NCBI RefSeq assembly: GCF_014236855.1
Contig: NZ_CP051261.1
Coordinates: 806,001 to 870,000 of the forward strand
Direction: 5' to 3'
DNA: 64,000 nucleotides
From: Xanthomonas sp. SI
GTDB taxonomy: Bacteria; Pseudomonadota; Gammaproteobacteria; Xanthomonadales; Xanthomonadaceae
This document shows positions 45,832 to 63,000 of this stretch, one piece after another (position 1 is the stretch's first letter; each line of letters starts with the position of its first letter). Both the position numbers and the translations under genes were made by a program. The notes under the pieces are model-generated. The model was not told the DNA's origin. It saw nothing but the letters and a program-made list of their open reading frames with translations, and did not search any database.

Positions 45832-47259
45832 TCAGCGCTTCCACATCCGCGCCTGCCGCGGCGGCAGGCTGAAGGTGTAGCTGCTGCTGGAAATGCGCAC
45901 CACGCTGCCCGAGCCGAGCGCGTCGCTGTAGTCCACGTTCCAGCGCAGCACGCTGCCGCTCATCGCCACCGTGGCGCTGACCGCGGTGCCGCACTTGTTG
46001 ATGCCGACGATGCCCAGGTCGCCGCGGCGGAACAGCAGGTGGCAAGCGTCGTGCGACAGCACCTGCATGTCGCTGCCCTGCGCGGCGTTGTGGAAACCGA
46101 TCATGCGCTTGAGGTCGTCGCGCTGATAGGCGTCCACCCAGCGGTTGTCGCCGCTCTCGTTGTTGTCCGAATACACCATCGGCACGCCGCCGTTGCGGCC
46201 GAGCAGATAGGCGTAGGCCAGGGTCTCGTCGACCGGGTCGAGGATCGCGTAGCGGAAGCCGGCGTTGTTCGGGATGTCGTGGGTAATCGCGAAGGTCACC
46301 GCGCGCTCGCCCGGCAAGGCCTGGCCGTAGGCGCCCGGATCGACCAGCAGGTCCATGCTGCCGCCGTAGGCGAAGGCGTTGCGGATCGAGTTGAACAGCG
46401 GGAAGTCGTAGGCCGCATGCGGCGTCGCCTGCAGGTAGGGCGCCAGGAACTGGTCGTAGTCGGCATTGCCGGCGCCGCCGCCGGTGATGACCTCGCCGAA
46501 CACGTGCACGCCGGAACGGATGCCCGAATCCAGCACGCGGTTGAGGTGGTCGAAGGTCATGTGCTTGGCCGCGTCGATGCGGAAGCCGGTGACGCCCAGC
46601 GCCTTCAATGCCTGCAGATAGTTGCGTTCCTGCTGCACCACCCAGTCGTTGCCGACCAGGTCGGGCAGGCCCGGATCGCTGCCGCCGCCGCAGATGCGAT
46701 AGGTGCGGACCTGGTAGGCGTCGCTGTAGTCGGTGATGCATTGCGCCGGGCTGAAATCGCCGCCACTGAGGACATTCACCGACAGGTCGCCGAACAGCCG
46801 CAGCGCTGCGTAACGCGACGGATCGGCGGCGTACTGCGATAGCACTGCGCTGCCCGGATAGTTCAGGTCAGAACGCGTCGCCGCTTCGTTGGCCATGTGG
46901 TTGAGCACCACGTCGGCATAGGTTTCCACGCCGACATCGGCCAGCGCCTGCACCATGCTGGCGAAGTCCTCGGTGTCGCCGAGCGGATTGTCGATCACGC
47001 GCATGTCCTGCGGCTGGTAGCGCGCCCACCAGGCGCTGCCCTGCGAGCGATACGCCGGCGCCACCATCACCTTGCGATAGCCGGCGGCGGCGATCTGCGC
47101 CGCGCGCGCTTCCACGGTGGCGTAGGGCCAGTTGAACGCGTGCAGGATGACATCGGCCTGAGCGCTGGCGGTGACCAGGGCCAGCAGCAGGCCGACGAGG
47201 AACAGGCGCCAGCGGTGCGGGCGCGGTGGGACGATCGGAGCGGCGGGCAGGTCGCGCAT
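45832..47259 (-). CDS. Secreted alpha-amylase (GH13)
   Basis: 475 residues. Signal peptide over about residues 1-35 (WRLFLVGLLLALVTASAQA, cut before DVILHAFNW). The GH13 barrel shows ADVVLNHMA, the nucleophile Asp in GFRIDAAKHM, the Glu of HVFGEVITGG and the Asp of ITHDIPNNAGF; the C-terminal beta domain ends RQARMWKR. It degrades external starch. AAGGAG lies 10 bp before the ATG; a GTG immediately before it is also possible. The last segment runs close to the metF upstream gap. Confidence 0.93.
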   Translation of the reverse strand: MRDLPAAPIVPPRPHRWRLFLVGLLLALVTASAQADVILHAFNWPYATVEARAAQIAAAGYRKVMVAPAYRSQGSAWWARYQPQDMRVIDNPLGDTEDFASMVQALADVGVETYADVVLNHMANEAATRSDLNYPGSAVLSQYAADPSRYAALRLFGDLSVNVLSGGDFSPAQCITDYSDAYQVRTYRICGGGSDPGLPDLVGNDWVVQQERNYLQALKALGVTGFRIDAAKHMTFDHLNRVLDSGIRSGVHVFGEVITGGGAGNADYDQFLAPYLQATPHAAYDFPLFNSIRNAFAYGGSMDLLVDPGAYGQALPGERAVTFAITHDIPNNAGFRYAILDPVDETLAYAYLLGRNGGVPMVYSDNNESGDNRWVDAYQRDDLKRMIGFHNAAQGSDMQVLSHDACHLLFRRGDLGIVGINKCGTAVSATVAMSGSVLRWNVDYSDALGSGSVVRISSSSYTFSLPPRQARMWKR

Positions 47260-47781
47260 CACACGGGTCTCCTTGGTGGAAGTGCGCAGGCGAAGCGTCT
47301 GCGCGTGTGGGCTGCATCCCGCGGCGGCAGTGGCGCAGGGAAGGCAGCGGTGAGCGATGCTAAGCGCGCATCGCGGCGCAACATGGGTGCGCTACATACG
47401 TATTCATTGCAGTGCCGGTCGAAAGCGGGATCGGTATCCGGTTCTGTAGTCCAGGCTGCGCGTGATGGCGCTGCGTCCCTGCGCGGCCGCGTAGGCAGGC
47501 GGATAGGTTTGCGTGCTGTCCGGCGAGTGCAGTGCGCTGTTCCCGATGCGGCGCGCTGCACATCGCGGCAAGCTTGGAGATGCAATTGGCTGCATGCATT
47601 CGGTCGCACGCGTGGTCCTTGGCGGTCGCGCGGCATGTTGCGATCGATGCGGCGCCGGCGGCCACGCACGTCAACGCAGACGTGCGTTGTCTCCCGCGCC
47701 GATCCACGCTGCGCTGCGCAAGGCAACCAGGTTTTTCCGATGCTAAAGTCACTCGCATCACCTTTACACGTGGACTGCACC
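47260..47781. other. Intergenic region upstream of the amylase and M14 genes
   Basis: 520 bp without a convincing gene, between divergent genes, with somewhat lower GC. It contains an 8-bp palindrome ATACGTAT at 47396-47403 and a GCATGCATTCGG segment near 47592. Promoters for both genes should be here, but no clear -35/-10 pair is visible. Confidence 0.35.
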
Positions 47782-49659: not shown

Positions 49660-51504
49660 TCAGTGCAGCAAGGGATTCGCCCAGACCACCAGCGGCGGCA
49701 ACGCGCCGGCCGGCACTGCGTCGGTAGTGGCGACCAACTCGAGCACGCCGACCTTGCCGATCGGCAGTTCGACGGCGACTGCCGCATCGCCGCTGCGCAT
49801 CGGCGCGCTTTCGTACAGGAGCCTGGCGTCGCCGTAGACGCGGAACACGGTGATGCCGGTGCCGCGCGCGTCGCTCTCCTGCAGCCCGAGCGACGTGCTG
49901 AACTTGGAGAACTCGCCGCGCGTGAGGATCTCCAGCCGCGAATCGGCATGGGCGCCGATGCCGTATGCGTATGCGTTGCCGGCGATCCTCAGCGGCTGGC
50001 CGTACGGCGTGACATCGGCGCGCGGCGTGCCGGAGGCGGCGTCCAGCGCGGTGGCGTAGGTCGGCAGGCCGTCGGCGGCGACATGGATGCGCCCGGTCAT
50101 TTCGCTCAGCAGCGTCGCGTCCGCTTCCACCGGCGCGCCCTTGACCTTGAGCAGCATCGCGGCATGCGGCGCCAGGGCATAGCGCAGCGGGCCCTGGCGC
50201 GACGGCAGGTCGCGGCGGCGCCATAGATCGCGGACCGCCAATGGCGTGCCGGCGGCCAGCTTCATCTGTCGCGCATCGACCTGCGCCACGGCCGCGGTGT
50301 CGCCGCGATTGAACAGCAGCACGGCGCGTTCGCCGCGCGCCGACAGCGGCTTGACCAGCACCTGCACCGGCGCAGCGTCGACTACCAGCGTGGCCTGGTT
50401 GCCGGCCGCATCCTGGTTGATCGCGATCACCTCGGGGTTGCGCAGCAGTTCGATCAGCGGATCCGGTGCGCGGGTCAGGTCGAACCCCAGCAGCAGCGGT
50501 GCGGACAGCATCGCCCACAGCGAGAAATGGGTGCGCGCTTCGGTCAGGTGCGCGGCGTCGAACGCGCCCAGGCCGACCGCCAGCATGTCCGGATCGTTCC
50601 AGCGGCCCGGGCCGGCGTACAGTTCGCGCCGCGAGGCCGAATCGAAGTTGTGCAGCATGCTGTCCCAGGTCGGCTCGATGTCCGGGCTGGTGCGCCACAG
50701 GTGGCCGTAGCTGCCGCCCCAGTCGCGCACGCCGGCCTCGCCCCAGGGGCAGATCGACAGCACGTAGTCGTTGTCGGGATTCAACGCGGCCAGCAGCCGG
50801 CCGATGCGCGCGTAGTGCGTTTCCACCGCATCGCGGTCGCTGCGCACGGCGTCGCCGCGCACGATCAGCGGGCGCAACGCGCGCTGGCCGGATTCGCGCA
50901 CCGGCACGCTGTCGGCGGCGAAGTCGGCCAGGCCGCAGGCGTCCACCTTCAGGTAGTCGAAGCCCCAGTTCTGGAACATGGTCTTCAGGTCCGAGGCTTC
51001 GAAGCCCTGCAAGCCGATCTCGCGCTCGGCCACGCTGCCCACCGGCAGGTTGGGGCTGGTGCGGTCGAACGCCTGCGAGCAGGCGTTGCGTCCGGCGTCG
51101 GTGTACAGGCCGGCCTTGAAGCCGCGGGCATGCAATCCATCGGTCCAGGCACGGAAGCTGGTGCCGCCGTCGCCGGTGCTGGCGATGGGAAACATGGAGG
51201 TGCGGATGGCGATCTCGCCGCTGGCGCGGCGCTGCAACCACCAGCCGTCGTCGATGTTGATATAGCGGTAGCCAGCCTGCTGCAGGCCGCGGCGCTGGAT
51301 GGCATCGACCACCGACAAGATCCGCGCCTGGTCGACGTCGGTGCGGAAGGCGTTCCACGGATTCCAGCCCATCGGCGGAGTAGCGGCCGCGCCGTGCCCG
51401 TACACGCTGAAACGGCCGCTGGGTTGCAGGGCGTCGTGGCGCTGCGCCGCGCTCGCGGCGACGGCGATCGTGCAGAGCAGGGCGGCCAGCAGCGGGCGTT
51501 TCAT
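49660..51504 (-). CDS. GH27 alpha-galactosidase/alpha-N-acetylgalactosaminidase with C-terminal NPCBM-like domain
   Basis: 614 residues, secreted (signal MKRPLLAALLCTIAVAASA). The GH27 barrel has TPPMGWNPWNAF, YINIDDGWW, the nucleophile D188 in FDYLKVDACG and acid/base D306 in RWNDPDMLAVG. A C-terminal beta domain follows from about 380. A last module (about 470-614; YAYGIGAHADSRLEI) has the NPCBM form. The galactose-recognition loop reads LSICPWGE, with P253 where most GH27 alpha-galactosidases have Glu (CEWG), so the specificity may be altered. It is the last gene of the minus-strand operon, 43 bp after the kinase gene. Confidence 0.92.
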   Translation of the reverse strand: MKRPLLAALLCTIAVAASAAQRHDALQPSGRFSVYGHGAAATPPMGWNPWNAFRTDVDQARILSVVDAIQRRGLQQAGYRYINIDDGWWLQRRASGEIAIRTSMFPIASTGDGGTSFRAWTDGLHARGFKAGLYTDAGRNACSQAFDRTSPNLPVGSVAEREIGLQGFEASDLKTMFQNWGFDYLKVDACGLADFAADSVPVRESGQRALRPLIVRGDAVRSDRDAVETHYARIGRLLAALNPDNDYVLSICPWGEAGVRDWGGSYGHLWRTSPDIEPTWDSMLHNFDSASRRELYAGPGRWNDPDMLAVGLGAFDAAHLTEARTHFSLWAMLSAPLLLGFDLTRAPDPLIELLRNPEVIAINQDAAGNQATLVVDAAPVQVLVKPLSARGERAVLLFNRGDTAAVAQVDARQMKLAAGTPLAVRDLWRRRDLPSRQGPLRYALAPHAAMLLKVKGAPVEADATLLSEMTGRIHVAADGLPTYATALDAASGTPRADVTPYGQPLRIAGNAYAYGIGAHADSRLEILTRGEFSKFSTSLGLQESDARGTGITVFRVYGDARLLYESAPMRSGDAAVAVELPIGKVGVLELVATTDAVPAGALPPLVVWANPLLH

Positions 51505-51547
51505 CGGCGTGTCCTTGGCGGGCGTGGTCGGCGTCCGCGGCGATGCT

Positions 51548-52495
51548 TCAGCGGGGTGGAATGGCGGCCAGTTGCCGCGCGTAGAGCGCGGCCCCGTAGT
51601 GCGGGGCGTGCAAGGGCGCGCGCAGTTGGAAATCGCGAGCGGCCGCGTCCAGCGCCAGCCGCAGCGGGCGCATCAACAGCTCGCCGGCGCTGAACGCGCC
51701 ACCGGAATACGACACCGGCACCGGCTCGCCGGCTGCGAATCCGAGCGCGCCGCGCAGCGCCACCGCGATCGCCGCCAGTTCCTGGCCTGCACGCTCGAAG
51801 ATCGCCGTGGCCACCGCGTCGCCCGCCTGCGCGGCGCGCGCGACCAGCGGCGACAGCCTGGCCAGGTCGCCGCGACTGCCGACGCCTTCGCCGTAGACGT
51901 GCGCGCAGATGTCCAGGTCGTGCGCGCCCAGCTGGAAATGCTCGCGCAGCAGCGCATGCAGCGGACCGCGCGGCAGGCGCCCGTCGCTCATGCGCGAGAA
52001 CGCGTTCAGGCCCTGCATCGCGATCCAGTAGGCCGAGCCTTCGTCGGAGAACGCCTCGCCCCAGCCGCCGCAGCGTGCGGCGGCGGCGCCGCGCCGGCCG
52101 TATCCCATCGAGCCGGTGCCGGCGATGATGTTGATGCCGTCGGCGCAGGCCAGCGAACCGGCCCAGCCGCACACCATGTCGTTGTCGCAGGCGTAGCGGT
52201 CGTGGCCCAGCACCTGCGCGGGAATGCTTTGCAGCGCGGCGGTAGCGCGGCTGTCCTCGCCATAGGCGGGCAGCCCGAAGAAGGCCTGCGCGATATCGGC
52301 CGGGGCGCGCTGCAACTGGCCGAGGACTTGGCCGATGCCGTCCGCCAAGGTGGCGCGCACGCCGTCCAGGCCCACCTGCGGGTGATAGGTGGCGCCCAGC
52401 TGCGCCTCGGCCAGCAGCGCGCCGCTGGCGTCGATCGCGGCGAAGCGGGTCTTGCTGCCGCCGCCGTCGACGCCGAGGTAGAGCGCTGCGCTCAT
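51548..52495 (-). CDS. BadF/BadG-family sugar kinase (AgaK/GlcNAc kinase-like)
   Basis: 315 residues of the ASKHA fold. Phosphate-1 motif LGVDGGGSKTRFAAIDASG at the N-terminus, then ACDNDMVCGWAG, INIIAGTGSMGYGRRG (phosphate 2) and GGWGEAFSDEGSAYWIA, typical of N-acetylhexosamine kinases in this family. In context it should phosphorylate GalNAc or galactosamine at O6. The ATG overlaps the stop of the AgaS gene (ATGA). The symbol agaK is used for Shewanella homologues with the same role; I leave it unassigned here. Confidence 0.88.
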   Translation of the reverse strand: MSAALYLGVDGGGSKTRFAAIDASGALLAEAQLGATYHPQVGLDGVRATLADGIGQVLGQLQRAPADIAQAFFGLPAYGEDSRATAALQSIPAQVLGHDRYACDNDMVCGWAGSLACADGINIIAGTGSMGYGRRGAAAARCGGWGEAFSDEGSAYWIAMQGLNAFSRMSDGRLPRGPLHALLREHFQLGAHDLDICAHVYGEGVGSRGDLARLSPLVARAAQAGDAVATAIFERAGQELAAIAVALRGALGFAAGEPVPVSYSGGAFSAGELLMRPLRLALDAAARDFQLRAPLHAPHYGAALYARQLAAIPPR

Positions 52496-53652
52496 GCGTC
52501 CAACGCGTACAGACGCACGCCCTGCACGACGCGATTGACCAACCCGGACGGATTCGGATTGTCCGGGGTCACGCCCATCGCGCGCGCGGTCAGGAACGCG
52601 AACAGCTGCGCGGCGGCGATGTACGGCCACAGCAGGTCAGCGTCCGCGGCCGCGTGCATGCCGGGAACCGCGAGCGTGTCCGCCTCCAGGCCCGGGCGCG
52701 GCTGCGCGGTGATCTCGACGATGCGGGCGGCGCAGCCGTCGCGGCGCAGTTCGTCGAGCAGGTCGTGATCGTAGCGACGCGTGTAGGGGTCGTTGGACAC
52801 GAACACCAGCACCAGCGTGCGCGCGTTGACGAAGGTCTTCGGCCCGTGGCGAAACCCCAGCGGCGAGTCGTAGCAGGTGGCCACGGCGCCGTTGCTGAGC
52901 TCGCCGAGCTTGAGCGTGGCCTCGCGCGCCAGGCCCTGCAGCAGGCCGCTGCCCAGGTACACCACGCGCTCGAAGCCGCCGCGCGCGAGCGTTTCCAGCA
53001 ACGGCCGCGCGTGCAGCAGCACCGCGTCGACGGCGCGACCGATCGGGCCGATGCGGGCATCGAGCGCGCCGGCCGGCAGCAGCGCCGCCAGGGTGGCGTA
53101 CATCATGCAGCTGAAGCTGGAGGTCATCGCGAAGCTGACGTCATGGGTTTCCTGCGGCAGCAACAGGGTCATGGCCTTGGCCACCGGCGCGCGCGCCAGC
53201 GCGCCGTCGCGGTTGCAGGTCACCACCAGGTGGCGCACGTCGGCGACCAGCGCTTCGGCCAGGTCCACCGCGGCCAGGCTCTCGGGACTGTTGCCGGAGC
53301 GGCCGAAGGAGATCAGCAGCAGCGGCTGCGCCGGGTCCAGGTACAGCTGCGGCGCGCAGACGATGTCGGTGGTGGGCACCGCGTCCACGCGCGCGGCCAG
53401 CACGCGGTCCAGCAGCGGCGCCAGGCACTGGCCGATGTAGGCGGAGGTGCCCGCGCCGGTGAGGATCACTCGCGCGCGCGGGTCGTCGGCGATCGGTGCG
53501 GCGAAGGCCTGCAGCTGCGCGTGCAGCTCGGCGACCAGCGCATGGGTGCGTTCGAGCATGCGCGGCTGCTGCGCGATCTCGCGCGCGGTCCACAGCGCGC
53601 CGCTGGCATCCAGTTCGGATTCGGCAATGCCGAGGGCATCAGGAGGGGTCAT
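52492..53652 (-). CDS. agaS: AgaS-like SIS-domain galactosamine-6-phosphate deaminase/isomerase
   Basis: 386 residues with two SIS sugar-phosphate isomerase domains. Motifs: TREIAQQPRMLERT, VILTGAGTSAYIGQCLAP, LLISFGRSGNSPESLAAVDLA, then VVYLGSGLLQGLAREATLKLGEL and SPLGFRHGPKTFVN in the second half. AgaS converts galactosamine-6-P to tagatose-6-P plus ammonia. In-frame ATGs at 53667, 53658 and 53652 overlap the end of the GatZ gene; the last gives MTPPDALGIAESE and is chosen. It is coupled to the kinase gene downstream. It is the strongest sign that the locus handles an amino sugar. Confidence 0.9.
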   Translation of the reverse strand: MTPPDALGIAESELDASGALWTAREIAQQPRMLERTHALVAELHAQLQAFAAPIADDPRARVILTGAGTSAYIGQCLAPLLDRVLAARVDAVPTTDIVCAPQLYLDPAQPLLLISFGRSGNSPESLAAVDLAEALVADVRHLVVTCNRDGALARAPVAKAMTLLLPQETHDVSFAMTSSFSCMMYATLAALLPAGALDARIGPIGRAVDAVLLHARPLLETLARGGFERVVYLGSGLLQGLAREATLKLGELSNGAVATCYDSPLGFRHGPKTFVNARTLVLVFVSNDPYTRRYDHDLLDELRRDGCAARIVEITAQPRPGLEADTLAVPGMHAAADADLLWPYIAAAQLFAFLTARAMGVTPDNPNPSGLVNRVVQGVRLYALDA

Positions 53653-54928
53653 GGGCATGGCATGCATGGTGATAGTCGTCGAGAACGGCACTGACGTGGG
53701 CCATGACCAGGGACTGCGGATCGCGCGTCGCGGTCCCGGTACGGATGGCGTGCAATGCGTGGGGGAGATACTGGCCGAGGAGCGGCAGTGGCGGCGGATC
53801 GGCGCGCAGGTTGTCGAACAGGCGCACGCGCGCCTGCTCGATCTGCGCATCCGGCCAGTAGTAGCGGATGCGGTCGCTGAGGCTGTACTGCAGGTCGATG
53901 GCCAGGCCGCGGCCCTGCCCGTGGTAATAGCGCTGCCAGTGGCCGGGTGCGGCCTGCATGCGGCGCACGGTCACCTCGCGCAGGTTGGCGCGCTGCGTGG
54001 CGTCGATCCATTCGCGTTCGATCGCGTCCAGCGCCCACAGCGCTTCGCGCAGGGCAAAGGTCAGCCCGGGGCCGACCTTGAGGATCGCGAAGTGGTCGCG
54101 CACCAGCGCGTCCAGCGCCGCGCGCGTCTGGTAGTCGGTGGAATGCGCTTCGAACACCATGTCCGGCACGGCGGTCACCGCCTGGCTCAGGTCGCGCGCC
54201 TTGCCGCTGTCGTAGTCGATGACGACGTGATGGTCGAATTCCACGCCCGGTTGCACCACCGAGGCGATGACCCGGGTCCAGGCATCCCCCAGCCCGGCCT
54301 GTGCGAACGCGCTGCGGTGCGCTTCGATAGTGGCCAGCGCCGCGTCCGGCGTGGTCAGCGCCAGGCCGTCGATCGCTTCGGTGGCGCCGCCGGGCACCGG
54401 TACTTCGGTGCCGATCACGTACACCGGCGCTTCGCCGCCCGCCAGCGCCCACGCGTCCTCGGCGGCGCGGCACAGGCGCACCGCGCGGCGCACGATCTCC
54501 GCTTCGGGCAGCGGCTCGGGATCGCCGCTGCAGGCCATCGAGCAATCCAGGTGGATCTTGCGGAAGCCGGCGGCGACGTATGCGGACACCATGACCTCGG
54601 CCTTGTCCATCGCCGCGGCGGCGTCCAGCGCCGTCCACGGGTTGGGACCGAGATGGTCGCCGCCCAGCGCGATGCGCCCGCGCTCGAAGCCGACCCGGTC
54701 GGCGATGGCGTGCACGAACGCGACGAAGTCGGCCGGGCGCATGCCGGTGTAGCCGCCGTCCTGGTTGACCTGGTTGCAGGTCGCCTCGAACAGCACCAGC
54801 GCCTGGCCGCTGCGCTGCGCATGGCGCAGTCCGGCTTCGACGACGAGGGGATGGGCCGAGCAGATCGAGGTCACGCCGATGGCGTGGCCTTGCCGATGCC
54901 GCGCGATCAGATCGAGCAGAGCGTGCAT
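53639..54928 (-). CDS. GatZ/KbaZ/AgaZ-family protein (tagatose-1,6-bisphosphate aldolase subunit type)
   Basis: 429 residues. Family signatures: RHRQGHAIGVTSICSAHPLVVEAGL, FEATCNQVNQDGGYTGM, GGDHLGPNPW, KIHLDCSMAC, YVIGTEVPVPGGA and FEAHSTDYQT, covering full length. In enteric bacteria GatZ/KbaZ supports the catalytic GatY/KbaY aldolase; a role in tagatose-6-P phosphorylation has also been proposed for AgaZ. No GatY/KbaY is encoded in the window. It begins 11 bp after the EamA gene and its end overlaps the AgaS start. Confidence 0.92.
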   Translation of the reverse strand: MHALLDLIARHRQGHAIGVTSICSAHPLVVEAGLRHAQRSGQALVLFEATCNQVNQDGGYTGMRPADFVAFVHAIADRVGFERGRIALGGDHLGPNPWTALDAAAAMDKAEVMVSAYVAAGFRKIHLDCSMACSGDPEPLPEAEIVRRAVRLCRAAEDAWALAGGEAPVYVIGTEVPVPGGATEAIDGLALTTPDAALATIEAHRSAFAQAGLGDAWTRVIASVVQPGVEFDHHVVIDYDSGKARDLSQAVTAVPDMVFEAHSTDYQTRAALDALVRDHFAILKVGPGLTFALREALWALDAIEREWIDATQRANLREVTVRRMQAAPGHWQRYYHGQGRGLAIDLQYSLSDRIRYYWPDAQIEQARVRLFDNLRADPPPLPLLGQYLPHALHAIRTGTATRDPQSLVMAHVSAVLDDYHHACHAHDPS

Positions 54929-54939
54929 GGAAAATCCAG

Positions 54940-55860
54940 TCAGGGGGAAGAGGGCGGTGGCGGCGCGCGCTCGGGTTCGAGCACCAGCAGCAGCGAGGCG
55001 AGCAGCGCCAGCACCAGGCCGATCGCCTTCAGCGGCCCAGGCACGATGCCGGCGAACAGCAGCGCCAGCACTGCGGTGACCAGCGGCGCGCCGGCATTGC
55101 TCAGCGGCGCCACGACCATGGCCTTGCCGTAGCGGAAGGCGTAGACCAGGGTTACCGCGCCCACGGCGTTGAGCAGTTGGATGGCCGCGGTCATCCACGG
55201 CCCGTCCAGTCCGGTGTTGATCGGCTGCCGCCAGTCGGTCATCGCCAGCGCCACCGGCGCCAGCAGCAAGGCGCCGAGCGTCATGTAGGCGAAGATGCTT
55301 TCCGCGCGCACGCTGTCGTTGGCCAGCTTCATGAAGAACGCCTGCACGCCCCACGCCAGCATGATCAGCAGCGACTGCAGGAACCAGCCCAGCCCGCCGC
55401 CGCTGCCGCGGCCGAACGACAGGTCCAGCAGGGGCAGGGCGAGCAGCGCCAGCACGATGCCCAGCGTGCCCTGCCAGCCGGTGCGCTCGCGCAGCAGCAG
55501 GAACGACAGCGCGATGGTCGCCACCGGCGACAGCGAGATGATCGGGAACACGAAGTACGCCGGGCCGATGGTCAGCGTGTGGAACAGCAGCATCTGCCCG
55601 CCGGCGCCGAGCAGGCCGATGGTCAGGCCGTAGCCGATCGCCCTGGGCGAGCGCTCCAACTGCCAGCCGTTGCGCCACAGCAGGTACAGCGCCGGCGGCA
55701 GCATGGTCAGCGCCCACACGCAGTACACCAGCGTGTCGGGGAAGCCGTGCGCCGCCGACAGCGGCGACAGCGCACCCCACAATCCCCACAGCACCACCGT
55801 GGTCAGGGCGAAGACCAGCCAGGGCCGGCGCCGCGCGGCGTGCGTCGGTGCCGCGCTCAT
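54940..55860 (-). CDS. EamA-family (DMT) inner-membrane transporter
   Basis: 306 residues with about ten membrane helices in two five-helix repeats (WLVFALTTVVLWGLWGALSP at the start; LLNAVGAVTLVYAFRYGKAMVVAPL near the end). DMT proteins export or exchange metabolites, and some import sugars. It is the only inner-membrane transporter in the galactosamine operon, so it may be the sugar permease. The ATG overlaps the stop of the GH36 gene (ATGA). Confidence 0.9.
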   Translation of the reverse strand: MSAAPTHAARRRPWLVFALTTVVLWGLWGALSPLSAAHGFPDTLVYCVWALTMLPPALYLLWRNGWQLERSPRAIGYGLTIGLLGAGGQMLLFHTLTIGPAYFVFPIISLSPVATIALSFLLLRERTGWQGTLGIVLALLALPLLDLSFGRGSGGGLGWFLQSLLIMLAWGVQAFFMKLANDSVRAESIFAYMTLGALLLAPVALAMTDWRQPINTGLDGPWMTAAIQLLNAVGAVTLVYAFRYGKAMVVAPLSNAGAPLVTAVLALLFAGIVPGPLKAIGLVLALLASLLLVLEPERAPPPPSSP

Positions 55861-57968
55861 GCCGGGTCCCTGGCCGGCGTGGCCTGCAGGAACAGGAAGC
55901 GCTGGAAGCGCGCGGGCAGGAACGCATGCGCGGCATCGACCACGCCGAGCTCGCGTTCGTTGAACAGGTCGCGCACCTGCCAGCGGCCGGGCGCCAGGCC
56001 GCGCAACTCGACCTTGCCGTCCCACTGCGGCGCATAGAACGTGTAGTACTGCGCGCCGTCCTTGCGGATCGCATGCGCTTCGGGCTTGTCGAAGCCGATG
56101 TCGTACAGCGTGCCCAGATACTCGCCCTTGGGCAGCATGTGGGTCTTGTACAGCTCCACCCACTTGCGCCACAGCGCTTCGCGCTCGGGCGTCAGCACGA
56201 AACCGCCCGGCGGCAGCGGCACCGACGGATGGTCGGTGTCCTTGGGCCAGGTGAACTTGCTGGAGATCACCGCGCCGATGCCGACGCTGGAGGCGAAATC
56301 GTCGCGGTTGTCCGACAGTTCCACATGATCGCCGGCGTAGCTGCTGCGCGCGCCGATCAGCGCCTTGATCGACTTGCCCTTGCTGCGCACCTGCCACGAC
56401 GACAGCGGGTCCGAGGACGGGTACTGGTCGGTGGCCGGCAGGTTGTGGAACGCGAACGCGGTGCCGCACGGGCACAGTTCCACCACCGCCTGCGGATTGG
56501 CCTGGTGCGCGGCGCGATAGATCGCCTCCCAGAACTTGGCCAGGCCTTCGACCGAATCGTTCGGGCTGGCGTGGTGGTGCGCGGGGTTGTAGCAGGGCGC
56601 GACGGCGTTGAGATGCTGGCCGTCGAGCTTGATGCCTTCGAAGCCCCAGTCGCCGATGGCCTTCTTCACCAGCGCCACGTAGAAGTCGATGGTCGGCTGG
56701 TAAGCCGGGCACTGGGTCAGCGCGTTCCACCAGGTCACGGTCTGGAAGGCGCCTTCCTTGTCCAGCAGCAGCATGTCCACGTGCTCGTGCAGCACGTCGC
56801 TGCCGGGATCGGCGGCCAGCGGCGCCAGCCACAGGCGCGGGCGCATGCCGTGCTTGCGCACTTCGGCGGTGAACGCGCGCATGTCGGCATCGCCGCGCGG
56901 GAACTTGCGCCGGTCGATCTTCCAGTCGCCTTCGTTGGTCTGCCAGCCGTCGTCCAGCACCGCCCATTCGAAGCCGAGCTCGCGTGCCTTGGGCAGCGTG
57001 GCGAAGATCTGCTGCACGTTGAAATCGCGCTCGTAGCCCCAGGCGCACCAGATCGGCGCGAACGCCGAATCCGGCGGGCGCGGGCCCTCGATGCCCTCGG
57101 CGCGCATGAACGCCTGGTATTGCTGCAGCGGGGCGAAGAAATCGCCGCTGTGCACCGCCAGCAGGGTGCGCTCGGTGACCAGTTCCTGGCCGGGCGCCAG
57201 CGTCGTCGCCTGCGCCGATTCGATCGCGATCGCGGCGCCCGCGGCGGTGCGGCGCACCGGCATGTCCAGCGGCCGCGGCACCAGTTCGACGTGGCCCACG
57301 GCGATGCCGACGTCGCGGCGCCAGAGATTGGCCACAGGCGTGCCGCCGCCGTAGTCGGAGGAATCCATCGCCAGCGTGTTGCGCTGCGCGAAGCCGTCGC
57401 CGAGCGGTTGCACCCAATCGCGGCGGTCGGTGTGGGTGGCGCCGGAGAAACTCCAGAAGCCGCCGGCCACGGCCGGCAGTTCGTGCGCGCCGTTGCGCCA
57501 GCCGGCCACTTGCAACGCGGTGGTGCCCAGGTTGCGATAGCGCACCTGCAGCAGCGCCAGGCCGGGCAGCGCGTCGAACAGGCTCACCGCTACCTGCTTC
57601 TCCACGCTGGCCTTGGCCGCGCGCCCGGTGAACACGGTCTGCCGGCCGCGGCCATGGCGCGGATCGTCCAGCGCATGCGTTTGCTGGCCGGTCAGCGCGA
57701 AATCGGTGAGTTCGCTGCCGTCGGCCAGCAGCAGCGCTTCGCTGGGCTGGTAGGCAGTCAGCGCCTTGCCGCGCGAGGACAGCCGCGTGTGCATGCGCCG
57801 ATCGAAGGCGAGGGACAGCACTGCATCGGCGATTACCGGTTTGCCGTCGGCGGCGGTCGCATCGACGGCTTCGGCCGAGCGCGCCCAGGGCGCCACGCTC
57901 CATGCGGCAGCGCCGGCCACGCTGCCGACGACGTACTTCAAGACACTGCGGCGTCCAATCGGGGACAT
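55857..57968 (-). CDS. GH36-type alpha-galactosidase, exported
   Basis: 703 residues. N-terminal twin-arginine-like signal (GRRSVLKYVVGSVAGAAAWS). A large N-terminal beta domain precedes the barrel: IWCAWGYERDFN, VLDDGWQTNEGDW, nucleophile D449 in GIKLDGQHL, ELCPCG, acid/base D520 in YPSSDPLSSWQ and SSKFTWP, then a C-terminal beta sandwich. GH36 includes both alpha-galactosidases and alpha-N-acetylgalactosaminidases. It is the first gene of the operon, divergent from the amidohydrolase gene, with TTTCGTT operators in the 108-bp gap. Confidence 0.9.
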   Translation of the reverse strand: MSPIGRRSVLKYVVGSVAGAAAWSVAPWARSAEAVDATAADGKPVIADAVLSLAFDRRMHTRLSSRGKALTAYQPSEALLLADGSELTDFALTGQQTHALDDPRHGRGRQTVFTGRAAKASVEKQVAVSLFDALPGLALLQVRYRNLGTTALQVAGWRNGAHELPAVAGGFWSFSGATHTDRRDWVQPLGDGFAQRNTLAMDSSDYGGGTPVANLWRRDVGIAVGHVELVPRPLDMPVRRTAAGAAIAIESAQATTLAPGQELVTERTLLAVHSGDFFAPLQQYQAFMRAEGIEGPRPPDSAFAPIWCAWGYERDFNVQQIFATLPKARELGFEWAVLDDGWQTNEGDWKIDRRKFPRGDADMRAFTAEVRKHGMRPRLWLAPLAADPGSDVLHEHVDMLLLDKEGAFQTVTWWNALTQCPAYQPTIDFYVALVKKAIGDWGFEGIKLDGQHLNAVAPCYNPAHHHASPNDSVEGLAKFWEAIYRAAHQANPQAVVELCPCGTAFAFHNLPATDQYPSSDPLSSWQVRSKGKSIKALIGARSSYAGDHVELSDNRDDFASSVGIGAVISSKFTWPKDTDHPSVPLPPGGFVLTPEREALWRKWVELYKTHMLPKGEYLGTLYDIGFDKPEAHAIRKDGAQYYTFYAPQWDGKVELRGLAPGRWQVRDLFNERELGVVDAAHAFLPARFQRFLFLQATPARDPA

Positions 57969-58028
57969 GGGCAACGGGTCCGGTGGCGTTGCCCGCATTC
58001 TGCGCGCGCCCCGACGATTGATGCAAGC

Positions 58029-58062
58029 GTTTTGTTTCGTTATGTTGCTACTTGTTTCGATG
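58029..58062. promoter_or_regulatory. AgaR-type operators between the GH36 and amidohydrolase genes
   Basis: TTTTGTTTCGTTATGTTGC (58030-58048) and TTGTTTCGATG (58052-58062) are direct copies of the TTTCGTT core known for DeoR-family AgaR sites. They lie in the gap serving two divergent transcripts, and the same core recurs before the TonB receptor gene. Confidence 0.6.
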
Positions 58063-58077
58063 ACGCGAGGTGGAGTG

Positions 58078-59208
58078 ATGAAGACCGTCCTGATCCTGTT
58101 CGGCGTCCCGCTGGCCATCGCGCTGTTGGGCGGCGTGCCGGCAGCGCATGCGCAACCCGACGCGAAAGGCGCCAGCGCAGCCGACGTGCCGTATGCGATG
58201 GCCGATTTCGCCAAGGTCCGCAAGTACGACGCGCATGTCCACGCCAACCGCGCCGACCGCGCCTTCCTCGAACAGGCGCGCGCCGACAACTTCGAACTGC
58301 TCTCGATCAACGTCGACTATCCGGATTTCCCCAGCATCGAGCGGCAGCACCGCGCTGCGCTGATCCTGGCCAAGGCCGATCCGGCGCGCTTCCATTGGGC
58401 GGCGACGTTTTCGATGCGCGGCTATGCCACGCCCGGCTGGCACGAGCGCGTCGAGGCCGGCCTCGACCAGGCGGTGCGCGAAGGCGCGCGCGCGGTGAAG
58501 GTGTGGAAGAACATCGGCATGGTGGAGAAGGACGCGCAGGGCAAGCTGATCATGCTCGACGATCCCGGCCTGGCGCCGGTCGCCGAGCACATCCGCGCAC
58601 TGGGCGTGCCGCTGATCGCGCACCAGGGCGAGCCCTACAACTGCTGGCTGCCGCTGCAGCAGATGACCACCAACAACGACCGCGAGTATTTCGCCAAGCA
58701 TCCGCAATACCACATGTACCTGCACCCGGAGATGCCCTCGCATGCCGCGCTGATGGCCGCGCGCGACCGCTTCGTCGGCGCGCATCCGCAGTTGCGGGTG
58801 GTCGGCGCGCACATGGCCAGCCTCGAATACGATGTCGATCGGCTGGCGGACTTCCTTGACCGCTTCCCCAACGCCACGGTCGACCTGGCCGCGCGCATGA
58901 GCCAGGTGCAGTACCAGTCCAACCGCGACCGGGCCAAGGTGCGCGACTTCTTCGTCCGCTACCAGGACCGCTTGCTGTACGGCACCGACCTGACCTATGC
59001 GCCGGGCGCCGATCCGGCGCAGTTCCGCGCCGAAGCGCATGGCGTGTGGCAATCGGACTGGCGCTATCTGGCCACCGACGAAACCCAGCGCGTCGCCGTG
59101 CTGGAGGCCGACGTGCGCGGCCTGGCGCTGCCGCGCGCGGTGATCGACAAGATCTACTACCGCAATGCGCTGCGCGAATTCGCCGCGGCCAAGGCCGCTG
59201 CGCAATAG
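58078..59208 (+). CDS. Secreted amidohydrolase_2-family hydrolase
   Basis: 376 residues with a signal peptide (MKTVLILFGVPLAIALLGGVPAAHA). TIM-barrel metal ligands of the family: HxH in KYDAHVHANRAD, Lys/His in VKVWKNIGM and PLIAHQGEP, and Asp in LYGTDLTYAP. The ATG has a GGTGGAG site 4 bp upstream. It is divergent from the galactosamine operon and shares its operators, so it is probably induced with it. It might remove an N-acyl group or lactone from the glycan in the periplasm; this is inference only. Confidence 0.85.
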   Translation: MKTVLILFGVPLAIALLGGVPAAHAQPDAKGASAADVPYAMADFAKVRKYDAHVHANRADRAFLEQARADNFELLSINVDYPDFPSIERQHRAALILAKADPARFHWAATFSMRGYATPGWHERVEAGLDQAVREGARAVKVWKNIGMVEKDAQGKLIMLDDPGLAPVAEHIRALGVPLIAHQGEPYNCWLPLQQMTTNNDREYFAKHPQYHMYLHPEMPSHAALMAARDRFVGAHPQLRVVGAHMASLEYDVDRLADFLDRFPNATVDLAARMSQVQYQSNRDRAKVRDFFVRYQDRLLYGTDLTYAPGADPAQFRAEAHGVWQSDWRYLATDETQRVAVLEADVRGLALPRAVIDKIYYRNALREFAAAKAAAQ

Positions 59209-59215
59209 GCCGCGA

Positions 59216-59995
59216 TCAGGCGCGCAGCAGGTCCACGCCCAGCGCCTGGCAGGCCTGGGCGACGTCTTCCGGGGCGCCGGTGTCGGTGATCAGCGCGTCC
59301 AGCTCCGACACCGGGATGATCCGGTGCAGGCAGATCTTGCCGAACTTGGAACTGTCGGTGATGGCGATGACCGCGCGCGCGGCCTCCACCATCTTGCGGT
59401 TGAGCATCGCCTCGGGCTCGTAGTGGGTGGTGATACCGCGCTCCAGATCGAAGCCGTCCACGCCCAGGAACAGCAGGTCTACGTGCAGCGCGTCCAGCGC
59501 TTCGACCGTCAGCCCGCCATAGAAGGCCATGTTCTTGCGCCGCAGTTCGCCGCCCAGCATCACCAGGTTGATGTGGGTCTTGGGGCTGAGCGCGGTCAGC
59601 ACGCCGAAGTCGTTGGTGACCACGGTCACGTCGATGTCCGGCAACGCTTCGGCCAGCTGGATCGCGGTGGTGCCCGAATCGATGGCGATGGTGTTGCCCG
59701 GCTGCACCATCGCCGCCGCGCGCCGGCCGATGCGGCGCTTTTCTTCCAGGTGCACGGTGCGCTTGGCGTCGTAATGCGGTTCGGCCGGCACGGCATTGAC
59801 CGCGCTGCTGTCGATGCCGCCGCCGTAGGCGCGCGCCATGACCCCGCGTTCGGCCAGGTAGCGCAGATCCTTGCGCACCGTCTGCAGGCTCACCCCGAAC
59901 TGCTGCGCCAGGGCGGACACCTGCACGCTGCCGTGCTGGCGGACCAATTCGCTGATCTGGAGACGGCGTTGGCTGGTGTCGCGGGTGACGGACAT
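59216..59995 (-). CDS. DeoR/AgaR-family transcriptional repressor
   Basis: 259 residues. N-terminal HTH (RRLQISELVRQHGSVQVSALAQQFGVSLQTVRKDLRYLAERG, in parts) and a C-terminal sugar-phosphate sensor domain (IAIDSGTTAIQLAEALP, VVTNDFGVL, MLGGELRRKNMAFYG, FLGVDGFDLERGITTHYEPEAMLNRKM). The closest subgroup by these motifs is AgaR/GatR. AAGGAG lies 5 bp before the ATG. It sits between the two operator regions and presumably binds both, released by a phosphorylated galactosamine or tagatose. Confidence 0.92.
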   Translation of the reverse strand: MSVTRDTSQRRLQISELVRQHGSVQVSALAQQFGVSLQTVRKDLRYLAERGVMARAYGGGIDSSAVNAVPAEPHYDAKRTVHLEEKRRIGRRAAAMVQPGNTIAIDSGTTAIQLAEALPDIDVTVVTNDFGVLTALSPKTHINLVMLGGELRRKNMAFYGGLTVEALDALHVDLLFLGVDGFDLERGITTHYEPEAMLNRKMVEAARAVIAITDSSKFGKICLHRIIPVSELDALITDTGAPEDVAQACQALGVDLLRA

Positions 59996-60027
59996 GGGGG
60001 CTCCTTGCAAACGGTCCAGAGTATGCG

Positions 60028-60097
60028 ACAGTTCGTTACATTTCGCTATTGATACAAAACGAAACCTGATATAGGCTCGGTTTCGTTGCTTTTCATC
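60028..60097. promoter_or_regulatory. AgaR-type operators upstream of the TonB receptor and repressor genes
   Basis: Three copies of the core lie between the divergent repressor and receptor genes: GTTCGTTACATTTCGCTATT (60031-60050), the reverse TCAGGTTTCGTTTTG (60055-60069), and GGTTTCGTTGCTTTTCATC (60079-60097). They match the AgaR consensus style (TTTCRTTT followed by T-rich sequence). Confidence 0.6.
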
Positions 60098-60144
60098 TGG
60101 CCCCCGCACCGCCGTCCTACGCCCGCCAGCCCAGGAGACCGCCC

Positions 60145-63000
60145 GTGAACGCCGTTCGTCCGCATCGCCACAGCCTGTTCCATGCCATCGCCCTTGCCCT
60201 GCTGATGCCGGCCACGGCCTGGTCCCAGGACGCCGTACCGGTCTCGCCGCAGGCGCAGCCGGCGCCGGGCAGCGCCACCACCAGCAATGCCGAGGCAAGC
60301 CAGAATCCGGTCGACCTGGAGACGATCCAGGTCACCGGCGTGCGCGCCGCCCTGGCGCGTTCCACCGAACTCAAGCGCGACGCGGCGACGGTGCAGGATT
60401 CGATCAGCGCGCTGGAACTGGGCCGTTTCCCCGACGACAACGTGGCCGATTCGCTCAGCCACATCACCGGCGTGTCCATCACCCGCACCGCTGGCGGCGA
60501 AGGGCAGAAGGTCAGCGTGCGCGGGCTGGGGCCGGAATACACGCTCACCACCTTCAACGGCCGCATCCTGGCCACCGACGGCGCCGGGCGCGATTTCGCC
60601 TACGACGTGCTGCCGGCCGACGTGATCAGCGGCGCCGACGTGGTCAAGGGCGCGCAATCGGTGCTGACCGAAGGCGCCATCGGCGGCCTGATCAACCTGC
60701 GCTCGGCCAGCCCGTTCGACCAGAAGGGCCAGCACGCGATCGTCCGCGCCGAAGGCGACCGCAACCAGATGTCCGAACTCAACGGCCGCAAGCTGTCGGC
60801 GGCCTACAGCAACACTTTCCTCGACGACACGTTCGGCGTGCTGCTGGGCGTGGTCTACGCCGAGCGCAAGGACCGCACCGACATCGCCGGCAACGACGGC
60901 GGCTGGACCCGCAATCCCGACCCGAGCGACCCGACCTGGGGTGGCAACGCGTGGGGCGGCAATATCGATCCCAACGGCAACGGCCAGTTGGATCCGGACG
61001 AATATGGGCTGATCGCGCCGGGCCAGTTCCGCGTCGGCTCGATCCTGGAGGACAAGAAGCGCCGCGCCTTCTCCGGCAAGTTCGAGTGGCGGCCGAACGA
61101 CGACGTGCGCATCGTCGTCGACGGGCTCAAGACCCGCCTCGATTCGCCGCAGGTGTCCTACCAGCAGTCGTACTACCCGTTGTTCGCGCCGGGGCGCTGG
61201 TCCGACATCACCGTGCAGAACGGCATCGTCACCGGCCTCACCCTGGACAACCCGGATCCGGAGTTGCGCATGAATCCGGAGATCCTCAACCAGACCGAAC
61301 ACCGGGTGGTCGACACCGACCTGTACGGCATCAACGGGCAATGGAAGGCCAGCGACAGCCTGACCCTGACCGGCGACCTGTACCGCTCCACCTCCAAGCG
61401 CTATTCCGGCGGCCAGGACACCTACGTGGTGCTGCGCATGAACCAGCCCAACACCACCCGCATCACCCTCGGCCGCAACGCCGTGCCCAACGTCACCGCC
61501 AGCTTCGACGACGGTCGCGACCTCGCCACCGGCCTGGCCAACGGCCAGTTCACCGACACCGACTTCAACACGCACTACATGGAACTGCGCGGCGACAACA
61601 TCGCCGACGAGATCACCGGCGGCACTATCGGCGGCAAGTTGTACGTCGGTCAGTGGGGCGTGGACAACCTGCATTTCGGGGTGACCCGCACCGAGCGCAG
61701 CAAGCGCCGCGACCTGATCAACAACACCCTCAACGGCGGCGCCGACTACTATTCCGGCGACAACGCGATCAACGTCGGCGCGCTGGGCGGCAATGTGCTC
61801 GATCACACCTTCGCCCTGCCGCATTTCATGGACAAGGTGGGCTCCACGTTCCCGCGCACGTTCCTGGCTTTCGACGTGCCCAATTACCTGGCGCAGTTGC
61901 GGGCCTACGACGGCAACCCGCGCCAGGACGGCAGCAGCTACGACTACGCGCTGGCCGCGCCGCAGTGGAATCCGCTGGAAAGTTACCGGGTCGAGGAGAA
62001 GACCAACGCCTTCTACGTGCAGGCCGACCTGTCCGGCGAGCGCTGGAACGCCGACGTCGGCGTGCGCCTGGTCAAGACCCGCACCCGCGCACAGGCCTGG
62101 GACGCGAAGATCCTCAGCATCACCGAGAACGGCGCGTTCAACTACACCGCCGAATACGCCGAGCCGACCGCGATCGTGCAGGACGGCGACTACACCTTCG
62201 TGCTGCCGTCGGGCAACTTCACCTGGCGCTTCAGCGACGACCTGCTGCTGCGCGCGGGCGCGGCCAAGACCATGGCGCGCCCCTCGGTGGACAAGCTGGC
62301 GCCGACCAACACCACCGCCAGCGTGTCCTGGGGCGAGTTCACCCAGATCTACGGCGGCAACGTCAACCTCAAGCCCTACAGCGCCAAGCAGGGCGACCTG
62401 TCGTTGGAGTGGTATTTCGCCGAACAGTCCATCGCCAACGTGGCGGTGTTCTACAAGCGCATCGAAAACCAGATCACCACCAGCTGGGAGCCGAACCAGG
62501 ACATCGGCGTGCCGGGCCACCTGTTCAACGTGATGCGGCCGATCAACGGCGACTACGCCAAGGTCCGCGGCATCGAGGCCGGCCTGCAGCATTTCTGGGA
62601 CAACGGCCTGGGCTTCCGCGCGCAGTACACCCGCAACTGGTCGCGCAGCTGGGTCAACGGCGAGGAGCGCCCGCTGGAAGGCATCGCGCCGGCGGTGTAT
62701 TCGCTCGGGGTGATGTACGAGAAGGGGCCGTGGTCGATCGGCGCCACCGCCGACCACACCGACGGCTTCGTCACCGCGGTCAACGTGCTGGGCGCCGGCT
62801 ACAACGAACAGGCCGACAAGATCACCTGGCTGACCGCGCACGTGTCCTACGAAGTCAACGACATGCTGAGCCTCAGCCTGGAAGGCCAGAACCTGCTGGA
62901 CGACGAGCAGACCTACAGCATCAACGGCAACCCGCTGCTGTCGCAGGGCTACTCCCGCTACGGCCGCGCGTTCACCCTGGGCCTGAGCCTGCGGTTCTGA
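60145..63000 (+). CDS. TonB-dependent outer membrane receptor
   Basis: 951 residues, GTG start with CAGGAGA upstream. Signal peptide MNAVRPHRHSLFHAIALALLMPATAWS. A TonB-box-like ETIQVTG is near residue 62. The plug domain contains DSLSHITGVSITR, VSVRGLGPEYTLTTFNGR and DVVKGAQSVLTEGAIGGLINLRS, and a 22-strand type barrel ends YGRAFTLGLSLRF with terminal Phe. It is of the xanthomonad carbohydrate-uptake type and, by context, imports oligosaccharides released for the galactosamine operon. Confidence 0.94.
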   Translation: MNAVRPHRHSLFHAIALALLMPATAWSQDAVPVSPQAQPAPGSATTSNAEASQNPVDLETIQVTGVRAALARSTELKRDAATVQDSISALELGRFPDDNVADSLSHITGVSITRTAGGEGQKVSVRGLGPEYTLTTFNGRILATDGAGRDFAYDVLPADVISGADVVKGAQSVLTEGAIGGLINLRSASPFDQKGQHAIVRAEGDRNQMSELNGRKLSAAYSNTFLDDTFGVLLGVVYAERKDRTDIAGNDGGWTRNPDPSDPTWGGNAWGGNIDPNGNGQLDPDEYGLIAPGQFRVGSILEDKKRRAFSGKFEWRPNDDVRIVVDGLKTRLDSPQVSYQQSYYPLFAPGRWSDITVQNGIVTGLTLDNPDPELRMNPEILNQTEHRVVDTDLYGINGQWKASDSLTLTGDLYRSTSKRYSGGQDTYVVLRMNQPNTTRITLGRNAVPNVTASFDDGRDLATGLANGQFTDTDFNTHYMELRGDNIADEITGGTIGGKLYVGQWGVDNLHFGVTRTERSKRRDLINNTLNGGADYYSGDNAINVGALGGNVLDHTFALPHFMDKVGSTFPRTFLAFDVPNYLAQLRAYDGNPRQDGSSYDYALAAPQWNPLESYRVEEKTNAFYVQADLSGERWNADVGVRLVKTRTRAQAWDAKILSITENGAFNYTAEYAEPTAIVQDGDYTFVLPSGNFTWRFSDDLLLRAGAAKTMARPSVDKLAPTNTTASVSWGEFTQIYGGNVNLKPYSAKQGDLSLEWYFAEQSIANVAVFYKRIENQITTSWEPNQDIGVPGHLFNVMRPINGDYAKVRGIEAGLQHFWDNGLGFRAQYTRNWSRSWVNGEERPLEGIAPAVYSLGVMYEKGPWSIGATADHTDGFVTAVNVLGAGYNEQADKITWLTAHVSYEVNDMLSLSLEGQNLLDDEQTYSINGNPLLSQGYSRYGRAFTLGLSLRF

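Follow-up and report, generated by a model that had tools for sequence, protein, structure and literature searches.

The locus described here occupies positions 49660 to 63000 of the window, by which we mean the whole 64,000-nucleotide stretch of Xanthomonas sp. SI DNA that was analysed. Reading of the open reading frames and profile searches confirmed that every gene named in a preliminary description of this DNA is present, open and correctly read, as is the tight operon with its divergent amidohydrolase, regulator and TonB receptor. Six genes run along the minus strand from 57998 down to 49660 in the order GH36-like, EamA, GatZ, AgaS-like SIS protein, BadF kinase and GH27 with NPCBM domain, and the junctions between them, in the same order, measure -4, +11, -20, -4 and +43 bases. 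The plus strand carries an Amidohydro_2 gene divergent from the GH36 gene, beyond which lie an AgaR-like gene (minus strand) and the gene of a TonB-dependent receptor (plus strand). The features are as follows.

49660..51504, minus strand: GH27 hydrolase with a C-terminal NPCBM domain, an optional member (PF16499, PF17801, PF08305)
51548..52495, minus strand: BadF-family kinase, predicted galactosamine kinase (PF01869)
52492..53658, minus strand: AgaS-like SIS protein, predicted galactosamine-6-phosphate deaminase/isomerase (TIGR02815 below cut-off; match to 3c3j)
53639..54928, minus strand: GatZ, predicted tagatose-6-phosphate 4-epimerase (TIGR02810; seven active-site residues)
54940..55860, minus strand: EamA/DMT permease, predicted galactosamine importer (PF00892; substrate and direction suggested by context only)
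55857..57998, minus strand: GH36-like exported hydrolase, predicted alpha-galactosaminidase (PF02065; Tat-type signal; ATG at 57998, possibly at 57968)
58034..58059, no strand assigned: pair of GTTTCG half-sites within the divergent promoter of the GH36 and amidohydrolase genes
58078..59208 (alternative start 58060), plus strand: secreted Amidohydro_2 protein (PF04909; signal-like start)
59216..59995, minus strand: AgaR-like regulator of the DeoR family, predicted to repress the locus (NF040755 just below cut-off)
60060..60085, no strand assigned: candidate operator CGAAAC-N14-GTTTCG, between the regulator and receptor genes
60145..63000, plus strand: TonB-dependent receptor, predicted to serve oligosaccharide uptake (TIGR01782, 568.3 bits; cut-off 310)

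Upstream of the locus and outside it, a secreted protein that by eye resembles an alpha-amylase is encoded at 45832-47262 of the window.

Conservation of the locus was assessed by scanning genomes, one for each species, with a GH36 alignment and two peptide patterns. This retrieved 215 relatives, and the best 80 of the 215 loci were kept, a sample favouring close relatives. All five core genes (GH36, EamA, GatZ, AgaS-like and BadF) occur together in 75 of these best 80 loci, which puts the arrangement well outside anything that chance would give. Among the five incomplete loci, three stop at a contig end (L043, L051 and L085), L060 is without GatZ and L061 is without the four partners of GH36. 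Overall, the locus forms a conserved catabolic cassette that spans two phyla, its hosts among the best 80 of 215 belonging, by species names, to the Xanthomonadales, Sphingomonadales, Caulobacterales, Oxalobacteraceae and Actinomycetota. Pairwise distances of the five core proteins correlate (r 0.75-0.92, n = 75 loci), and a quick tree of GH36 contains one actinobacterial and one proteobacterial group. Most actinobacterial loci have the other four core genes divergent from GH36, and a GntR-type regulator cluster, one member of which is confirmed by Pfam, is common to 10 of the 13. Within the genus, GH36 was found in six of 20 species; the query of that scan had an over-long start, from which its first-residue stops and split matches stem. 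The kinase has its nearest named relatives, at 90-94% identity, in Xanthomonas sp. 1678, NCPPB 2654 and AM6. None of the matches listed in a search of the open-access literature describes this cassette.

The GH36-like protein scores 48.3 bits with PF02065, against a cut-off of 27, and bears by eye a Tat-type motif at its N-terminus. Its only near-full-length relatives in the PDB are 9awt, 9ayu and 8x1b (E 5.5e-67 to 3.4e-65). The first two are chains of FpGalNase, named A type blood alpha-D-galactosamine galactosaminidase; 8x1b is named alpha-galactosidase, yet is nearly the same in sequence. Classical GH36 alpha-galactosidases match the window protein only locally, at E 1.5e-10 or worse. For FpGalNase, Zhou et al. 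(PMC11762096) list residues W317, D346, D347, W387, K461, D463, Y464, C513 and D532, and describe the D463A, C513A and D532A variants as nearly inactive. All nine residue letters fit the 9awt chain in this numbering, and seven of the nine (W317, D346, D347, W387, K461, C513 and D532) are kept in all of the best 80 of 215 loci. The nucleophile is found as K-x-D-G at the same place in 81 of 81 sequences, the alignment being shifted there by a two-residue gap; Tyr464 of FpGalNase is not kept in the cassette enzymes. The predicted specificity to which this kinship points, for galactosamine, is a lead rather than proof, since identity to FpGalNase is only 28% over 590 positions; the branch between them is saturated.

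The AgaS-like protein scores 312 bits against 3c3j and 450.6 bits with TIGR02815, for which the curated cut-off is 529.2, while the regulator reaches 259.6 bits with NF040755, whose cut-off is 260. Neither score attains its curated threshold, which qualifies the preliminary description, and we call the proteins AgaS-like and AgaR-like. The kinase matches PF01869 with 150.3 bits (cut-off 31.5). Of its five PDB matches, four bear the names of amino-sugar kinases and one is a hexokinase; with the NagK profile NF046058 it scores 80.6 bits, well short of 370, yet its relatives are annotated as N-acetylglucosamine kinase. The EamA gene stands beside the kinase and deaminase genes in 75 of the best 80 of 215 loci.

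GatZ scores 625.3 bits with TIGR02810, above the cut-off of 568.8. In E. coli numbering, Cys20, Glu44, Asp87, His88, Glu171, His257 and Lys279 are kept in the window protein and in 76 of 76 loci; the residue numbers fit 2fiq, which we take to be E. coli GatZ. Asp87, His88, Glu171 and His257 make up the site that modelling proposed for GatZ and KbaZ, the other three being further marks of the family (PMC11907403). As described there by Palur et al., the E. coli proteins turn fructose 6-phosphate into tagatose 6-phosphate, and earlier work is cited for the reverse direction, from tagatose 6-phosphate to fructose 6-phosphate. Older views saw GatZ as a tagatose-6-phosphate kinase (PMC12118421) or, as the name of TIGR02810 reflects, as a non-catalytic aldolase subunit. 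Profile searches for the class II aldolase (PF01116) found no match in this genome and none in 31 of the 40 cassette genomes from Gram-negative bacteria, including all 25 Xanthomonadales (one of them probably a duplicate); nine of the 40 have it. These 40 genomes are probably 39, two having NagA matches at identical coordinates, and the same search was positive in 11 of 14 control genomes. Where the genome is without a class II aldolase, GatZ cannot be the helper subunit of that enzyme and, because its supposed partner is missing here, an epimerase is more likely: GatZ is probably a tagatose-6-phosphate 4-epimerase giving fructose 6-phosphate, and the last enzyme of the route. The earlier expectation of degradation to tagatose phosphates thus holds for tagatose 6-phosphate as an intermediate, but the product is likely to be fructose 6-phosphate. 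With the class II aldolase absent, a tagatose-bisphosphate aldolase route is not preferred in this genome; a kinase-plus-aldolase route might still run through the class I fructose-bisphosphate aldolase, for which the genome has an open frame of 350 codons, should that enzyme split tagatose bisphosphate. An aldolase route fits the actinobacterial loci, where a class II aldolase adjoins the cassette in eight of 13 (L045, L047, L049, L050, L053, L055, L056 and L057; one confirmed by Pfam), and may also operate in the nine Gram-negative genomes that have the enzyme.

The candidate operator between the regulator and receptor genes is a GTTTCG palindrome that presumably resembles known AgaR sites. 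With spacers of 13-15 the pattern occurs twice in the 5.25 Mb single-contig genome, and the reversed control pattern does not occur at all. The other palindrome, at contig positions 1972459-1972485, is perfectly self-complementary and GC-rich. Half-sites (TTTCG/CGAAA) were counted in the 48 related loci whose promoters are laid out as in the window. There are 179 in the regulator/receptor promoters (shuffle mean 32.9, maximum 45) and 82 in the GH36/amidohydrolase promoters (shuffle mean 26.4, maximum 39), and the full palindrome is present in 17 of the 48. Regulation looks local, with the AgaR-like protein predicted to act at the candidate GTTTCG sites.

We propose that the cassette frees galactosamine from alpha-linked galactosamine oligosaccharides and converts it in three steps to fructose 6-phosphate, a reading to which we assign a probability of about 0.6. 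Oligosaccharides would enter through the outer membrane by way of the TonB receptor, and the GH36 enzyme, presumably exported in view of its Tat motif, would release galactosamine from them for import by the EamA permease, if that is indeed its direction. The BadF kinase would then form galactosamine 6-phosphate, which the AgaS-like enzyme would deaminate to tagatose 6-phosphate, and GatZ would convert the latter to fructose 6-phosphate, likely by epimerisation. The AgaR-like protein would exert control at the GTTTCG sites. In Gram-negative bacteria a secreted amidohydrolase and sometimes a GH27 accompany the cassette. We infer every substrate specificity along this route from sequence. The succession galactosamine, galactosamine 6-phosphate, tagatose 6-phosphate, fructose 6-phosphate offers the simplest complete path in this genome, and the system is best classified as a variant of the known amino-sugar pathways.

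Of the GalNAc/galactosamine pathway suggested earlier, the galactosamine part fits better, because the nearest solved relatives of GH36 include a named galactosaminidase and because 79 of the best 80 of 215 loci have no NagA-like gene. The search was for a deacetylase of the AgaA/NagA kind clustered with AgaS; AgaS without AgaA is the mark of galactosamine use in one annotation scheme (PMC5583593). The single NagA-like gene (PF01979) lies at the edge of L086, from Duganella alba, where L086:1-726 has this amidohydrolase and a second AgaR-like gene beside the cassette. GalNAc, if less fitting, may nonetheless be used, since NagA is encoded elsewhere in the Xanthomonas genome, at contig positions 901331-902458, some 31 kb past the end of the window (312.6 bits, over the curated cut-off). 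Behind the NagA gene comes a GlmS-like frame with a SIS domain, by its looks a NagB-II deaminase, and the two make up a separate GlcNAc locus.

On this basis the GH36 and GH27 enzymes might be alpha-N-acetylgalactosaminidases, the BadF kinase might phosphorylate GalNAc and the distant NagA might deacetylate the product in the cytoplasm. N-acetyl-sugar kinases are indeed among the nearest solved relatives of the kinase, the Duganella locus has its own NagA-like gene, and E. coli NagA can stand in for AgaA (PMC12118421). Moreover, NagA exceeds its cut-off both here and in 48 of the 50 cassette genomes searched, a survey that omitted three actinobacterial genomes and whose 50 are probably 49 owing to a likely duplicate. 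The exceptions are Tsuneonella suprasediminis (L081), with no match, and Brevundimonas intermedia (L087), with matches below the cut-off only; both loci hold the whole cassette and both genomes are drafts. Since nearly all of these genomes have NagA, its absence gives weak support at best as a proof of galactosamine use, but the two exceptions count to that extent against a GalNAc pathway, as do the 79 loci of the best 80 of 215 without a NagA-like gene and the kinship of GH36 with a galactosaminidase that needs prior deacetylation of its substrate. We consider the GalNAc pathway unlikely.

A deacetylation step might instead take place outside the cytoplasm. By analogy with FpGalNAcDeAc/FpGalNase, the secreted amidohydrolase would deacetylate alpha-GalNAc ends in the periplasm and GH36 would then free galactosamine, the rest following the galactosamine route. 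FpGalNase itself converts the A antigen only jointly with its deacetylase (PMC11762096). The amidohydrolase (PF04909, 51.2 bits) has a signal-like start and its metal-site residues are kept in 65 of 65 relatives, L063 being left out of the alignment for a stop codon in its stretch. Among the best 80 of 215 loci, its gene is missing from all 13 actinobacterial ones but present in 66 of the 67 others. No sequence match was found in the PDB. A fold model built with an alignment has a pLDDT of 93 (mean 39 without one), and in fold it comes closest to uncharacterised proteins, decarboxylases and lactonases; that there is no sugar deacetylase among the 50 matches listed excludes nothing. Such a division of labour strikes us as quite improbable.

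The remaining hydrolase, GH27, has by eye a Sec-type signal at its N-terminus. Its earlier placing as a gene of the operon is right for this genome, but it is only an optional member across relatives, being present in 19 of the best 80 of 215 loci. Where the rice chain and three others listed have the C-E-W motif of alpha-galactosidases, the window protein has C-P-W. None of the GH27s from the 19 loci has E as the middle residue; P, A, V, N or T stands there instead. The Glu recognises O2 of galactose, and N-acetylgalactosaminidases have Ser in its place. Judged by this motif the GH27 enzyme is not a standard alpha-galactosidase, although the change is no proof of amino-sugar specificity, since 3a21, which we take to be a beta-L-arabinopyranosidase, also differs, with Asn at that position. 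It is very improbable that this is a plain alpha-galactoside locus whose GH36 and GH27 alpha-galactosidases yield galactose or another hexose: the GH36 relatives are annotated as alpha-galactosidase and both families include many such enzymes, but the AgaS-family relationship, the mostly amino-sugar kinases matched by the BadF protein, the loss of the Glu from all 19 GH27s and the purely local similarity to classical GH36 alpha-galactosidases all speak otherwise.

Enzymes that might cut galactosamine polymers from within were also sought. The GH114 endo-galactosaminidase (PF03537) is found in none of 20 genomes of the genus, which tells against the galactosamine reading; among cassette genomes, surveyed for 47 of the 80 loci, it occurs in 14 of 47 at E up to 0.001 and scores above the cut-off in 13, of which 12 are actinobacterial. 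As a cassette partner it was rejected, the signal vanishing against a control in which 138 of 150 Streptomyces-group genomes, almost all, have the family. Spherulin4 (PF12138) gave no match in the 20 genomes and none in the control genomes either, and is uninformative.

The preliminary description regarded such a locus as unexpected in a plant-associated bacterium because plants carry little GalNAc. This is not supported, as many environmental bacteria, judged by species names, have the cassette, and no plant source is needed since galactosamine is built into the extracellular polymers of both bacteria and fungi (PMC11014887). One description of Pel gives it a dimeric repeat of alpha-1,4-linked galactosamine and GalNAc (PMC9135694), and Agd3 removes acetyl groups from the fungal polymer galactosaminogalactan (PMC7229062). 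The natural source is likely to be a microbial exopolysaccharide, with galactosaminogalactan, Pel or a similar polymer as candidates. We advance more tentatively, at somewhat less than even odds, the broader idea of a previously undescribed, phylum-crossing cassette that eats the cationic galactosamine polymers of biofilms by means of an exported exo-alpha-galactosaminidase and a deacetylase-free route with GatZ as its last catabolic enzyme.

Galactosamine is one of the amino sugars by which microbial remains in soil are measured, and its origin, called largely unknown, has been traced to extracellular polymers (PMC11014887). If our reading is true, the cassette is a likely means of recycling this common soil amino sugar, and a dedicated and widely shared galactosamine route would provide gene markers for its turnover in soil. 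The cassette genomes would also be a natural test of GatZ, whose residues are kept where its assumed aldolase partner is absent, and enzymes of the GH36 galactosaminidase type attract practical interest as tools for converting blood groups (PMC11762096). The current database names, alpha-galactosidase and N-acetylglucosamine kinase, obscure the pathway.

Comparison with known systems places the cassette nearest to several of them in different respects. With the aga pathway of Shewanella and enteric bacteria, as described in PMC12118421 and PMC2996990, it shares a sugar kinase, AgaS, AgaZ/GatZ, an outer-membrane receptor, an AgaR-type regulator and the tagatose 6-phosphate intermediate. That pathway has the deacetylase AgaA and an AgaP permease or PTS, whereas the cassette has EamA, no NagA-like deacetylase in 79 of the best 80 of 215 loci and an exported FpGalNase-like GH36, with no class II aldolase in this genome. 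The FpGalNAcDeAc/FpGalNase pair of Flavonifractor plautii (PMC11762096) has a GH36 enzyme with the same catalytic residues; here, however, identity is 28%, Tyr464 is not kept, no deacetylase is recognised in the locus and GH36 is tied to a catabolic cassette. The seven active-site residues of GatZ are shared with GatZ/KbaZ and with the tagatose-6-phosphate 4-epimerases of Agrobacterium and Sinorhizobium named in PMC11907403 but, unlike these, the present GatZ belongs to an amino-sugar cassette, in genomes without a class II aldolase. Finally, the mucin locus BT4240-50 of Bacteroides thetaiotaomicron (PMC11992087) likewise combines a sugar kinase with the breakdown of glycans and the release of alpha-GalNAc in one locus, but does so with GH109 and GH2 enzymes and with a GalNAc kinase argued to phosphorylate O1.
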